From assembly GCF_030846775.1 (NCBI RefSeq), contig NZ_CP132910.1, positions 1,460,001 through 1,524,000 on the forward strand: a stretch of DNA of 64,000 nucleotides. The letters are read 5' to 3'. The notes beneath the pieces were generated by a model. That model had not been told where the DNA came from. It saw only the letters and a list, made by a program, of their open reading frames with translations, and ran no database searches. Below, piece by piece: positions 40,332-44,242 of the stretch (the stretch's first letter is position 1; the number at the start of each line of letters is the position of its first letter). The DNA comes from Geothrix sp. 21YS21S-2 (GTDB lineage: Bacteria > Acidobacteriota > Holophagae > Holophagales > Holophagaceae). The translations under genes were made by a program, and so were the position numbers.

Positions 40332-40406
40332 GCGGGCGTAATTCAGTGGCAGAATGTCAGCTTCCCAAGCTGAACGTCGTCGGTTCGATCCCGATCGCCC
40401 GCTCCA
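40332..40406 (+). tRNA. tRNA-Gly (anticodon CCC)
   Basis: 75 nt including an encoded CCA. Acceptor stem GCGGGCG / CGCCCGC; anticodon stem TCAGC / GCTGA with loop TTCCCAA, giving anticodon CCC for the GGG codon; T-loop GGTTCGATCCC; discriminator T. The 3' portion from base 40387 on is part of a larger repeat (see repeat features). Confidence 0.95.
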
Positions 40407-40652
40407 AAGCAAAGGCCCCGCAAGGGGCTTTTGTTTTGGAGCGGGCAATCGGGATCGAATCGTCCGATGCGCGCCGGTAGGCCCCCTCCGGACAGCCCGG
40501 GGGGCTGTCCGGAGGATCAGGGCCGGGCGCAGCAGCGGACGCGGCCCGGAGGGGATCCCGATCGCCCGCTCCAAAGCAAAGGCCCCGCAAGGGGCTTTTG
40601 CTTTGGAGCTGGGGATCGGGATCGAATCGTCCGATGCGCGCCGATAGGCCCC
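40387..40652 (+). repeat. tandem direct repeat of the tRNA-Gly 3' end, with inverted copies
   Basis: Unit 1 (40387-40485) and unit 2 (40554-40652) are about 99-bp direct repeats with a few mismatches, 167 bp apart. Each begins with the last 20 nt of tRNA-Gly and runs into a hairpin around GGCCCC-GCAA-GGGGC. The right arm of that hairpin is an inverted copy of the tRNA 3' end: a 33-bp arm with three mismatches reaching ATCGGGATC. Between the units is a perfect 14-bp hairpin (40485-40515). Unit 2 lacks that hairpin. Repeats of tRNA 3' ends often mark integration sites, but no integrase is present. Confidence 0.85.
40411..40436 (+). terminator. terminator after tRNA-Gly
   Basis: The core GGCCCC-GCAA-GGGGC with flanking A and T runs forms a terminator-like hairpin right after the tRNA. 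The stem can extend into the tRNA 3' half because of the inverted copy downstream, so folding may compete with tRNA maturation. Confidence 0.6.
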
Positions 40653-40760
40653 CGCAGGACCAGGGCGGGGCGCAGCGGCCATCAACTTATTTTCCCAACA
40701 AAGTTGCCTTTGTAAAAGGCCGGGCGGGTCGATAGGCTCAACGCATCCCCCGGAGTCAAC

Positions 40761-42332
40761 ATGCGCCGTTTAGGGCTTCTCTTGGCTGTCGCCTGCACCC
40801 TTGGAGCCAAAGACCCGATCCCGGTGGAAACGACGATTGCGGCTGTCCGTCTTCATCCAGGCGAAGGTTGGGTAACCCGCAAGGGAACCGTCCAGTTGCT
40901 GGAGGGAGGGTCCAGCCGCGTAATCATCCCTGGGCTTCCAGCAGGGCTCCGGTTTGATGACTTGCGCCTCAGAGCCCAGGGGCCTGCTGGAACTCGAATC
41001 GGTGACTTGACGGTCAGGGAGGCCCCCCAGACCTACCGTGAGCGAACGGAATGGAAACGCCTGGAGAAGGAGGCCGCTGACCTCCGGGGAAGGCTGGCCC
41101 TCCTCGATCTTCGCCAGAAGAACCAGGCAAAGGCCAGGCAGCTATTCCTGGACCTTAAAGCCGCCCAAACCAAGGGGTTTCAGCAATCCCTGACCACCGG
41201 CGCCCTGAAGCCCCAATCCATCCTGGATTTCAGTTTCGCGGTCGAGAGTCGGAGCCTCGAACTTGCGCGCCAGGATGCGGCCTTGAGCGAGGAGCGAAGC
41301 TCCTTGAAGTCGAGGGCTGACCGGAACGATGAAGCCATGGAAGGACTGAAACGGGAAGGCGAGGCCAATCCCACGGTCATCTCCGTGGAATTGGAGGTCC
41401 CCCGGGCCTGCTCCGTGGGCCTGGAATTGTCCTTCCGGGTCCAGGAGGCATCCTGGGCACCAGCCTACGAGGCGCGCTTAAGCCCAGACAAGCGTCACCT
41501 GGAACTGGTCCTGTTCGCAGCCGTGAAACAAGCGACCAATGAGAATTGGAACGGAATCAGCCTGGAACTTCTGAGCCAGGCCCCTTCAGGTCGCCTGGAC
41601 CTTCCGGCAGGGATTCGCCTCCCTGGGCTGAGTTACCAGGAGTCCGGCGCTCGAAAACCCGGCATTCCTGTTCCTGAGAATCCAGTTTCGCCCGCCGCCC
41701 TGACTACCTTGAAGGTGCCAGGCCAGGTTCAGGTGCGAACGGGAGAGGAACAGCGCTTCCGAATCGGCAGCCTCGATCTGGTTCCTTCATTCCGCTACCT
41801 GGCGATCCCCCGCCAGGGAAGCGATGTCTATTTGATGGCCATGGTCCTCCCTGCTCCCGGTTTTCCCCTTGTTGGAGGCAGCCCTGTGGATATGCTCCAA
41901 GGCACCGAAAGGGTCGGCACCCTCCAGATGGAAGCCCCGGGGCCTGGAGACCCACTCCGGTTGAGCTACGGCCCGGTGCCTGGGTTGACTGCACGCAGGG
42001 AAGTCCTCGAGCGCAACCATTCGGAAATCGGGGACAAGACCAAGGAGCGTCAGTGGGTCTTCAAGGAGAGCTTTGAAGTGGAGAGCACGTTTTCGACCCC
42101 TGTGGAAGTCGAGGTCCAGGACCGGACAGTGACCTCAGGTACGGATTCCGTGAAAGTGGACCAGGTGTCGGGTACGACTCCAGGCTGGGAAACCATCCAT
42201 ACAGGAATACGACGCTGGATCCTCCAATTGCCTCCCGGCGGCAAGGCCACGGTCCTTCAGAAGACCCGGATCCAGGGTCCCTTGGTGGGACACCTTGTCA
42301 ACGTGGGCGATCTTTCATTGGAGGGGAACTGA
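40761..42332 (+). CDS. DUF4139 (MuiA-like) protein, first of a pair
   Basis: A 523-residue protein of the mucoidy inhibitor A family. Signal peptide (about 1-16); DUF4140-like N-terminal domain (VRLHPGEGWVTRKGTVQLLEGG); a coiled coil (about 95-205); then the DUF4139 domain, beginning VISVELEVPRACSVGLELSF and continuing WAPAYEARLS and NENWNGISLELLSQAP. The family is secreted or periplasmic with unclear function. Base composition looks a little lower in GC than in surrounding genes. The stop overlaps the next start by one base (TGATG). Confidence 0.85.
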   Translation: MRRLGLLLAVACTLGAKDPIPVETTIAAVRLHPGEGWVTRKGTVQLLEGGSSRVIIPGLPAGLRFDDLRLRAQGPAGTRIGDLTVREAPQTYRERTEWKRLEKEAADLRGRLALLDLRQKNQAKARQLFLDLKAAQTKGFQQSLTTGALKPQSILDFSFAVESRSLELARQDAALSEERSSLKSRADRNDEAMEGLKREGEANPTVISVELEVPRACSVGLELSFRVQEASWAPAYEARLSPDKRHLELVLFAAVKQATNENWNGISLELLSQAPSGRLDLPAGIRLPGLSYQESGARKPGIPVPENPVSPAALTTLKVPGQVQVRTGEEQRFRIGSLDLVPSFRYLAIPRQGSDVYLMAMVLPAPGFPLVGGSPVDMLQGTERVGTLQMEAPGPGDPLRLSYGPVPGLTARREVLERNHSEIGDKTKERQWVFKESFEVESTFSTPVEVEVQDRTVTSGTDSVKVDQVSGTTPGWETIHTGIRRWILQLPPGGKATVLQKTRIQGPLVGHLVNVGDLSLEGN

Positions 42333-44242
42333 TGCGCCGCCTGATCCTGCCCGTTCTCTCCCTCTGTCTTTCCGCCCAGGAACCCGCCCTGAACCTTTCC
42401 CTTAGCCGCGTAAGGATCCATCCTCATCAAGCCTGGATAACCCGTGAGGCAACCTGGAACTTTCGCAGCCCTGGATCCCAGCGGATTCGGCTCACGGACC
42501 TTCCCCCAGGCCTTTCCTTGGAGGATATTCGCGTCCAGGCCGAAGGCATCCCCGGTCTCCGCCTGGGCAACATCGGCATCACCCAGGAAGAAGCCCGGAC
42601 TGAACCTGATGCTGGCACCAAGGCCCTTCAGACCGAGATCCAGACGCTGACCCGCGGCCAGGAAGAGCTGGTGCAAAAGCTTGGCGCCCTGGATGAAGCC
42701 ATGGCTGCCATCACCAATCTGAAGCCCGATTCAGGCGCGACCCCGACAGGCCAGGTTCCGGATCCCAAGGCGGCCGTTGATCTTGCACGGGCGATCCAGG
42801 CACGTTCGGAAGCAATTCTTGCGCAGGCAGAAGACTTGAGGAAGGAACAGGCCGTTGTCCAAGCCCGATTGGGCGCCCTTTCCGCCTCTCTCTTCAAGAA
42901 GGAGAGTTTGGCAAAAAGAAACAAAAGCGTCATTTCGGTAGAGCTGGATTCCCCGGCGGCAGGAGAGGCCCGGATCCAGGTTCTGAGCCGCACCGGAGCT
43001 GCCCGCTGGAGACCCACCTATGAGGTCCGCCTGGGCGAGAAGGGGCTCGAACTCCTGTGCTATGCAAGCATCGGCCAGGCGACGGGAGAGGACTGGAAGA
43101 ACGTCGGGCTGGAGATTTCGAACGCGGAACCGGAAAGGGCGATCCATGCCCCGATCCCGCCCCCGCCCGTTAAGCTGCTCTACAACGCCCCAGAAGTGGC
43201 CGCTATGGGCAGCATCGAGGGGAGGGTCACGGACAGGAGCGGCCACCCTCTGGCCGGGGTTGCAGTGATCGCCAGCTCCGACGCCATCAAGCCAAGGACA
43301 AGGTCCGCAACGACCGACCGGAATGGGGTGTTCCGGCTTCAACTTTTGCCGCTGGGGGACTATCGATTGCAGGCGACAAGGGCTGGCTACCCCTCCTCGA
43401 TGTCATTCGCTCGCGTCCTCTCGGCGCAACCCGTGAGCATTGGCATTCAACTTATGCCATCCGCAGGAGGGGCCACCGTCGAGGTCGTTGCGAGCACACC
43501 GGCGGTGGACCACTCAGTGACCAATACAGCCATTGTCCTCGGAGGTTCGGCAGTCTCAAACAACTATGCGCTGGAAGAAACGCCTGCCCATTATGAGGAA
43601 TCAGGAGAGTTGAGTCTTGCGTGGAGCTTGGCCGGCAAGCGGGATATCCCCTCCGACTCCCAGGCCAGGCGCATTCTTTTGGCCCAGAGCATCGCGGAAG
43701 CGAATTTGCAACTCCGGGCGCTTCCGAGGAGCAGTTCGGAAGTGTTCCTGGTCGCACCCCTGCGCTCACAGCCCGGCTACCCCTGGTTCCCTGGAACCCC
43801 GACCACGGTATTCCGCAATGGAGAGCAACTCGGGCAGGTAGCCCTGCCGCGCCTTCAGCCCGGCGAACGGACCTTGTTCAGTTTTGGCCCAGTTCCCGGG
43901 ATCCGGGTCCAACGTCAGCGGACGGAAGCCACGGTTGCCCTGGCCAGGAACGGGAAGTCCCGGCAATGGACCCTCCGGGAGAAGGTGATCCTGTTCAACG
44001 ACCTGGACCATGAAGTCGACATCCAGGTGCAGGAGCCCTCGATTCGCTCAGCGTCAGACCGGGTGCGGGTCGAGGTACTTCCTGAAGCGACTCCAGCCCA
44101 GGAAATCGAGGGCGATCTTGTTTGGCACGTCAAGGTGCCATCCCACGGCCAGGCAAGGATCGAGGAGGCTTGGCGCATTCTGGGACCGACCACCGGATCT
44201 GTCCCTGAAGTTGTCGCCCTTGGACTCCCAACAAGCGATTAG
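42332..44242 (+). CDS. DUF4139 (MuiA-like) protein with inserted carboxypeptidase-regulatory/TonB-receptor-like domain
   Basis: A 636-residue paralogue of the preceding gene, with signal peptide (1-16), DUF4140-like start (VRIHPHQAWITREATWNF) and coiled coil (about 105-195). DUF4139 begins VISVELDSPAAGEARIQVLS and is interrupted at about 290-420. The insert is a carboxypeptidase-regulatory beta-sandwich (IEGRVTDRSGHPLAGVAVIA, LPLGDYRLQATRAGYPS), then GGATVEVVAS and TPAVDHSVTNTAIVLGGSAVSN. These segments look like the N-terminal part of acidobacterial TonB-dependent receptors. DUF4139 resumes with ELSLAWSLAGKRDIPSDSQ. The pair is probably translated together from one mRNA. Confidence 0.82.
   Translation: MRRLILPVLSLCLSAQEPALNLSLSRVRIHPHQAWITREATWNFRSPGSQRIRLTDLPPGLSLEDIRVQAEGIPGLRLGNIGITQEEARTEPDAGTKALQTEIQTLTRGQEELVQKLGALDEAMAAITNLKPDSGATPTGQVPDPKAAVDLARAIQARSEAILAQAEDLRKEQAVVQARLGALSASLFKKESLAKRNKSVISVELDSPAAGEARIQVLSRTGAARWRPTYEVRLGEKGLELLCYASIGQATGEDWKNVGLEISNAEPERAIHAPIPPPPVKLLYNAPEVAAMGSIEGRVTDRSGHPLAGVAVIASSDAIKPRTRSATTDRNGVFRLQLLPLGDYRLQATRAGYPSSMSFARVLSAQPVSIGIQLMPSAGGATVEVVASTPAVDHSVTNTAIVLGGSAVSNNYALEETPAHYEESGELSLAWSLAGKRDIPSDSQARRILLAQSIAEANLQLRALPRSSSEVFLVAPLRSQPGYPWFPGTPTTVFRNGEQLGQVALPRLQPGERTLFSFGPVPGIRVQRQRTEATVALARNGKSRQWTLREKVILFNDLDHEVDIQVQEPSIRSASDRVRVEVLPEATPAQEIEGDLVWHVKVPSHGQARIEEAWRILGPTTGSVPEVVALGLPTSD

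Follow-up and report, generated by a model that had tools for sequence, protein, structure and literature searches.

Among described systems, the closest to the locus reported here is the enterobacterial RtT element (RF00391), a unit of 168–178 bp behind the tRNA genes tyrT and proK, whose 178-bp repeat reportedly goes back to Egan and Landy in 1978. RtT matches were present in 4695 of 5426 E. coli genomes at 1–14 places each, and at E. coli tyrT we observed three RF00391 matches with a unit of 178 bp. The unit carries an exact direct copy (D) of the final tRNA nucleotides, 19 nt in K-12 and 18 nt in a Salmonella strain, as well as an inverse copy (I) of the T-arm, which covers positions -9 to -30 at tyrT (19/22 matching) and -13 to -29 at proK (15/17). 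The longest exact inverse block at E. coli tyrT is 10 nt, a length reached by 7 of 2000 shuffles. A homologous RtT core with D and I fitting tRNA-Pro follows proK in K-12 and in a Salmonella strain. In the K-12 record (L270, NC_000913.3 3707400-3708900) the RtT-type unit with tRNA-Pro arms behind proK has no RtT feature, and it carries the label in other E. coli records.

The units that we found in Holophagaceae are alike in layout. They lie behind a tRNA gene, carry the final 19–20 nt of the upstream tRNA (D typically being 20 nt), bear an inverse T-arm copy upstream of the core (E) and, like RtT with its core common to two tRNAs, combine a common core with tRNA-specific arms in tandem arrays of variable number. 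They differ from RtT in an unrelated core with a different fold and in their occurrence behind tRNAs of 22 anticodons and tmRNA. With the Rfam model, RF00391 gave no match up to an E-value of 1 in the window stretch or at 8 loci, while the positive control (L168) gave three. Since the layout is the same and the cores are unrelated by the Rfam model, the Holophagaceae element would work like RtT without being a member of RF00391.

Single features also recall other systems. GTAG-tagged REP and REPIN sequences have GTAG at the foot of a hairpin, as has E, but E is longer, nested and tRNA-bound, occurs in few copies and has several carriers without Y1 transposase. The attL/attR sites in tRNA 3' ends repeat that end directly and stop at CCA, as here, whereas the Holophagaceae unit includes an inverse copy, places one core at many tRNAs and, at 167 bp behind tRNA-Gly, contains no integrase and leaves no room for coding. 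Integron attC-type folded sites, imperfect hairpins with an internal loop, one bulged base and a terminal part that varies, may offer an analogy to E, although no cassettes accompany the Holophagaceae units.

The locus lies in a window of 64,000 nt, bases 1460001-1524000 of one 5.25-Mb contig of Geothrix sp. 21YS21S-2, and comprises the following features (window positions):

40332..40406, + strand: tRNA-Gly(CCC) gene with encoded CCA (ARAGORN; Rfam RF00005)
40387..40406, + strand: D0, the final 20 nt of tRNA-Gly and origin of the copies (sequence)
40407..40436, + strand: t1, terminator-like GC hairpin flanked by an A-run and a T-run (sequence; hairpin I2)
40437..40459, + strand: I1, inverse copy of the final 23 nt of tRNA-Gly (sequence)
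40460..40553, + strand: E1, conserved foldback core with P1, GGTAG, P2, P3 and a GATCA bulge (CM R1; covariation)
40476..40480, + strand: GGTAG, near-invariant, at the foot of P2 (column counts)
40485..40515, + strand: P3, perfect 14-bp hairpin of E1 and family-variable part (arms 40485-40498 / 40502-40515)
40554..40573, + strand: D1, exact direct copy of the final 20 nt of tRNA-Gly (sequence)
40574..40603, + strand: t2, second terminator-like hairpin (sequence)
40604..40626, + strand: second inverse copy (I2), imperfect (sequence)
about 40627..40679, + strand: E2, shortened core without P3 and with no third D after it (sequence)

An earlier note on this DNA had described direct repeats 167 bp apart, each opening with the final 20 nt of the tRNA; we confirmed both, the repeats being 40387-40493 and 40554-40660 (107 nt, 93% identity). 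The inverted tRNA piece said to form a 33-bp imperfect hairpin was recovered as hairpin I3 (arms 40554-40586 / 40591-40623, 33 nt, 91% complementary) beside the longer hairpin I2 (arms 40381-40419 / 40424-40462, 39 nt, 90% complementary), and the perfect 14-bp hairpin is indeed missing in the second unit. The geometry for the suggested invasion of the tRNA 3' half is also in place, the inverse copy being able to pair with that half or with the direct copy. None of 1000 dinucleotide shuffles of the downstream 400 nt reached the exact 20-nt direct copy, and 1 of 1000 reached the longest exact inverse block behind tRNA-Gly (13 nt). The match of I1 to the tRNA extends with mismatches to -26 (24/26). 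The stem of t1 was called by the terminator scan on the - strand only. E1 was matched by the model CM R1 at G000:C1:1500458-1500557 with an E-value of 1.0e-12, E1 being itself one of the seven elements from which R1 was built; E2 was not among the CM R1 matches.

This genome has 44 tRNA genes, and 4 of them show the same arrangement, namely Gly(CCC), Asn(GTT), Gln(TTG) and Pro(CGG). When inverse copies of each gene's own end were scored within 400 nt downstream, these four reached 18.5–23 and the next best of the 44 reached 11.5. Their cores are homologous and their arms specific to each tRNA. The number of tandem units varies: the Gln array consists of three equal 171-bp units, the Pro array of two units and part of a third. 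The recombination hotspot proposed in the earlier note is consistent with this variable copy number.

CM R1, built from seven cores of this and related genomes with 28 predicted pairs, gave 92 matches in 16 of 41 genomes, comprising 16 of 25 genomes of the same family and 0 of 16 outside it. A family sample of 77 genomes from 11 genera had matches in 58 genomes and 9 genera (E-value up to 1e-4), and in a phylum sample 26 of 297 genomes had them, of which 25 belong to the same family. The remaining one (G192) has its match on a contig of 10 kb, where it follows a bare tmRNA tail; this could reflect mis-binning. A motif scan of 84,980 species genomes yielded 41 stretches, with titles nearly all of Holophagaceae, Geothrix or Acidobacteria, from which the family name was taken; the others were four Modestobacter, one Polyangiaceae MAG and one Bacillota MAG. 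The Modestobacter and Polyangiaceae matches have no tRNA nearby and were read as coincidence, and the Bacillota MAG sequence equals contig C147 of the family genome G011. Phages and plasmids gave no match to window 40430-40560, and no viral contig had the type-A motif. MiRNA-like Rfam matches at the loci, below gathering scores, were dismissed as hairpin artefacts. The RtT-like family thus appears to be confined to Holophagaceae and absent from Rfam, and no description of a Holophagaceae tRNA-tail family was found in the literature surveyed, which consisted mostly of listings. We regard the existence of the family and its anatomy as firm.

Presence of the unit at a given tRNA differs among species and includes decayed remnants. 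At the tRNA-Gly locus of Geothrix the units are intact at one extreme, and at the other a terminator is left beside an inverse copy in decay; the unit is absent in the congeners G001, G002 and G003, and in G005 it is present and spans an assembly gap. Many units of draft genomes lie at contig ends or N gaps (e.g. L101, L106, L117, L127 and L152), so that short-read assemblies probably break at the arrays and give too low a count of them. In G013 (C1:3074067-3111958) two tRNA-Gly-like stretches in the same orientation lie 37.8 kb apart, a possible island.

The position of the core is strict. A tRNA or tmRNA gene was found within 700 nt upstream for 87 of 111 aligned cores, and the 68 first units lie 17–75 nt (median 53) past the gene end. 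RNA genes within 115 nt of a core were in all 68 cases upstream on the same strand, with 0 in the three other arrangements; selenocysteine tRNA is among the 22 host anticodons. The 24 cores for which no RNA gene was found upstream were left out of these counts. They lie at contig starts, N gaps, missed tmRNA genes or bare tRNA tails, except for L116, which has no tRNA tail although 1 kb of upstream sequence is present. At L088, L096, L173 and L249 a bare tRNA or tmRNA 3' tail is followed by the unit and foreign-looking DNA replaces the gene body. Such loci are likely island ends, the genomic island having separated the gene from its units.

The boundaries of the arms are precise. Of 49 first units whose D matches at 18 positions or more, 27 have a D starting at -20 and 8 one starting at -27; in 42 of the 49 D ends at -1, directly at CCA. 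Of 61 first units whose I matches at 14 positions or more, 25 have the far end of I at -23 and 20 have it at -30. In either class, then, the commonest positions of D and I lie three bases apart, and seven bases, as many as the T-loop has, separate one class from the other. The complementarity of I to the tRNA 3' end takes in CCA at several loci. An exact 20-nt D is present in 37 of the 68 first units. For 52 of these 68 a same-anticodon partner with a different tail was available in another genome. Compared with the best such tail, the own tRNA matched D better in 40 cases (3 ties, 9 worse) and I better in 43 (5 ties, 4 worse), and tails of other anticodons reached 18/20 in only 15 of 4306 comparisons. 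By these sequence comparisons both D and I track the tRNA of their own species. For the odd D behind tRNA-Ser of G008 no donor tRNA was found within its genome.

We also assessed the fold of the core. In a free alignment of seven sequences 17 of 28 pairs had changed on both sides. Among 104 distinct cores 92.6% of the cells were paired, compared with 65.7% in shuffled and 30–42% in slid alignments. Two-sided changes amounted to 654 cells versus 196 in shuffles and all 28 model pairs covary, although these pair counts lean toward the model structure because the alignment (A2) was fitted to it. The cells of P1 and P2 contain 1809 Watson-Crick, 18 GU and 9 AC pairs, whereas the stems of 114 distinct tRNAs from the same loci contain 109 GU and 7 AC in 1938 cells. 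If the structure were maintained purely as RNA, it would be expected to resemble the tRNA stems; that GU and AC are both nearly absent and nearly balanced points to upkeep mainly at the DNA level, which we consider likely. Interior GU pairs are 56 of 3644 on the + strand and 29 of 3543 on the - strand, and in 83 of 100 comparisons the better fold is that of the + strand, a bias that suggests some constraint on E at the RNA level. GGTAG is near-invariant in the alignment, with GTAG in columns 24-27 beside the hairpin; together with the strict downstream placement on the same strand it would also suit an RNA role, and E may in addition act as RNA. Nearest-neighbour comparisons gave 38 pairs with two-sided changes, 24 of them via routes needing a true mismatch, and 24 pairs with one-sided changes. 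In a tally of rows for the 18 closest pairs (identity at least 0.86), several of which set a unit against a decayed tandem neighbour, one-sided changes prevailed by 14 to 3, as expected from slow selection; this speaks against instant concerted copying.

Of the 68 first units, 17 have as nearest neighbour the same tRNA of a different genome (3.6 expected) and 9 a different tRNA of their own genome (3.5 expected). In the present genome the Pro core shows 79% identity to the Gln core, compared with 65% and 60% to the Pro(CGG) cores of two congeners. Taken together, these values suggest that E is inherited at one tRNA over genus-level time and is sometimes copied elsewhere.

The locus belongs to a family of tRNA- and tmRNA-tail units, [t - I - E - D]n, and we propose, with intermediate confidence, that these are kept and remodelled mainly as DNA. 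E is a conserved foldback of about 95 nt inherited within the family, and D and I copy, directly and in inverse, the end of the tRNA or tmRNA that lies upstream. During replication the folded-back strands (I with D, and P1/P2 inside E) would template one another by template switching or conversion, by which the arms would stay matched to the adjacent tRNA and the tRNA end would be rebuilt at each D. Recombination among the D and t repeats could lead to gain and loss of units, and E may occasionally be copied behind another tRNA via the common T-arm sequence. Template switching has been reported to create and maintain hairpins (PMC8794818).

An alternative that we consider unlikely, yet with a real share of the probability, is an RNA element, in which E and its arms form a trailer RNA from the tRNA precursor, as reported for the rtT RNA of E. 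coli, and function as a small RNA or regulate maturation through pairing of I with the tRNA 3' half. The strand and downstream position of E, the strong covariation and the better folding of the + strand agree with it, but GU pairs are scarce compared with true RNAs at the same loci, a terminator-like hairpin separates the tRNA from I at the window locus and at the other intact loci read, and presence at a given tRNA varies by species, with decayed remnants. The small RNA from duplicated tRNA tails considered in the earlier note is near in kind to the enterobacterial RtT RNAs, with which the locus shares its layout.

It is doubtful that the units are miniature integrative elements, non-autonomous and integrated, at times in tandem, by island integrases of the same tails with D as attachment core. 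The exact end of D at CCA would fit, D0 and D1 are identical as att cores at two ends would be, tRNA and tmRNA genes are typical integrase targets, and the four bare-tail loci adjoin foreign-looking DNA. However, integrases are usually tRNA-specific, whereas one core family serves 22 anticodons and tmRNA; D mostly starts at -20 and so omits half of the T-loop; the arms follow species-specific changes of the tRNA; and E is common to the same tRNA among congeners. The one-off scar of an integrated element put forward earlier is unsupported since the core is homologous at different tRNAs and across the family while the arms track the local tRNA, and no island bounded by the unit was found at the window locus.

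Mobilisation of E as a REP-like GTAG palindrome by a RAYT/Y1 transposase is very improbable. The near-invariant GGTAG at the hairpin foot recalls the GTAG-tagged REPs, a known super-family (PMC3733652), but E is about 95 nt long, bound to tRNA genes and without single dispersed copies, and Y1_Tnp is absent from the E carriers G001, G008, G009 and G014. Still less credence is due to retro-copying, in which I would resemble a primer binding site and tRNA-primed reverse transcription would write D and I: I complements the tRNA 3' end and D stops at the mature 3' end, but the reverse-transcriptase domain PF00078 is absent from the same four carriers and the comparative data lean against it. With several carriers having neither, reverse transcriptase and Y1 transposase were both rejected as obligatory partners. 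Simple slippage or local tandem duplication of the tRNA end, least probable of all, is refuted as an origin because homologous cores at different tRNAs and genera cannot arise in this way, although tandem units within a locus are nearly identical, as in the three Gln units, and slippage may account for copy number.

In the present genome, outside the window, we noted ten reverse-transcriptase domains that do not differ in score or coverage and probably belong to a single intron-type element in multiple copies, and three Y1 transposase copies of equal scores with one in-frame TAG each.

Returning to upkeep as DNA, we tentatively extend it: foldback elements that track the tail of an upstream tRNA or tmRNA gene may form a general class in bacteria, with at least two sequence-unrelated families (RtT and that of Holophagaceae). 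They would rewrite their arms from the adjacent tRNA by DNA self-templating; each copy would rebuild the tRNA end, and the element could colonise any gene bearing a T-arm. With the Holophagaceae family, what was a puzzle of RtT repeats at a handful of enterobacterial tRNA genes becomes a pattern that recurs in two distant bacterial groups, and the independent copies are numerous enough for testing how a repeat tracks its neighbour's sequence. The family, which Rfam lacks, is situated where genomic islands mainly land. If the arms are indeed self-templated, a DNA process can yield conserved structure and covariation, often taken as proof of RNA function, and the count of GU and AC pairs would be a simple discriminator between upkeep as RNA and as DNA.

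Next to the locus, two neighbouring ORFs of 523 and 636 aa at window 40761-44242 on the + strand are alike in start and layout and are possibly tandem paralogues.
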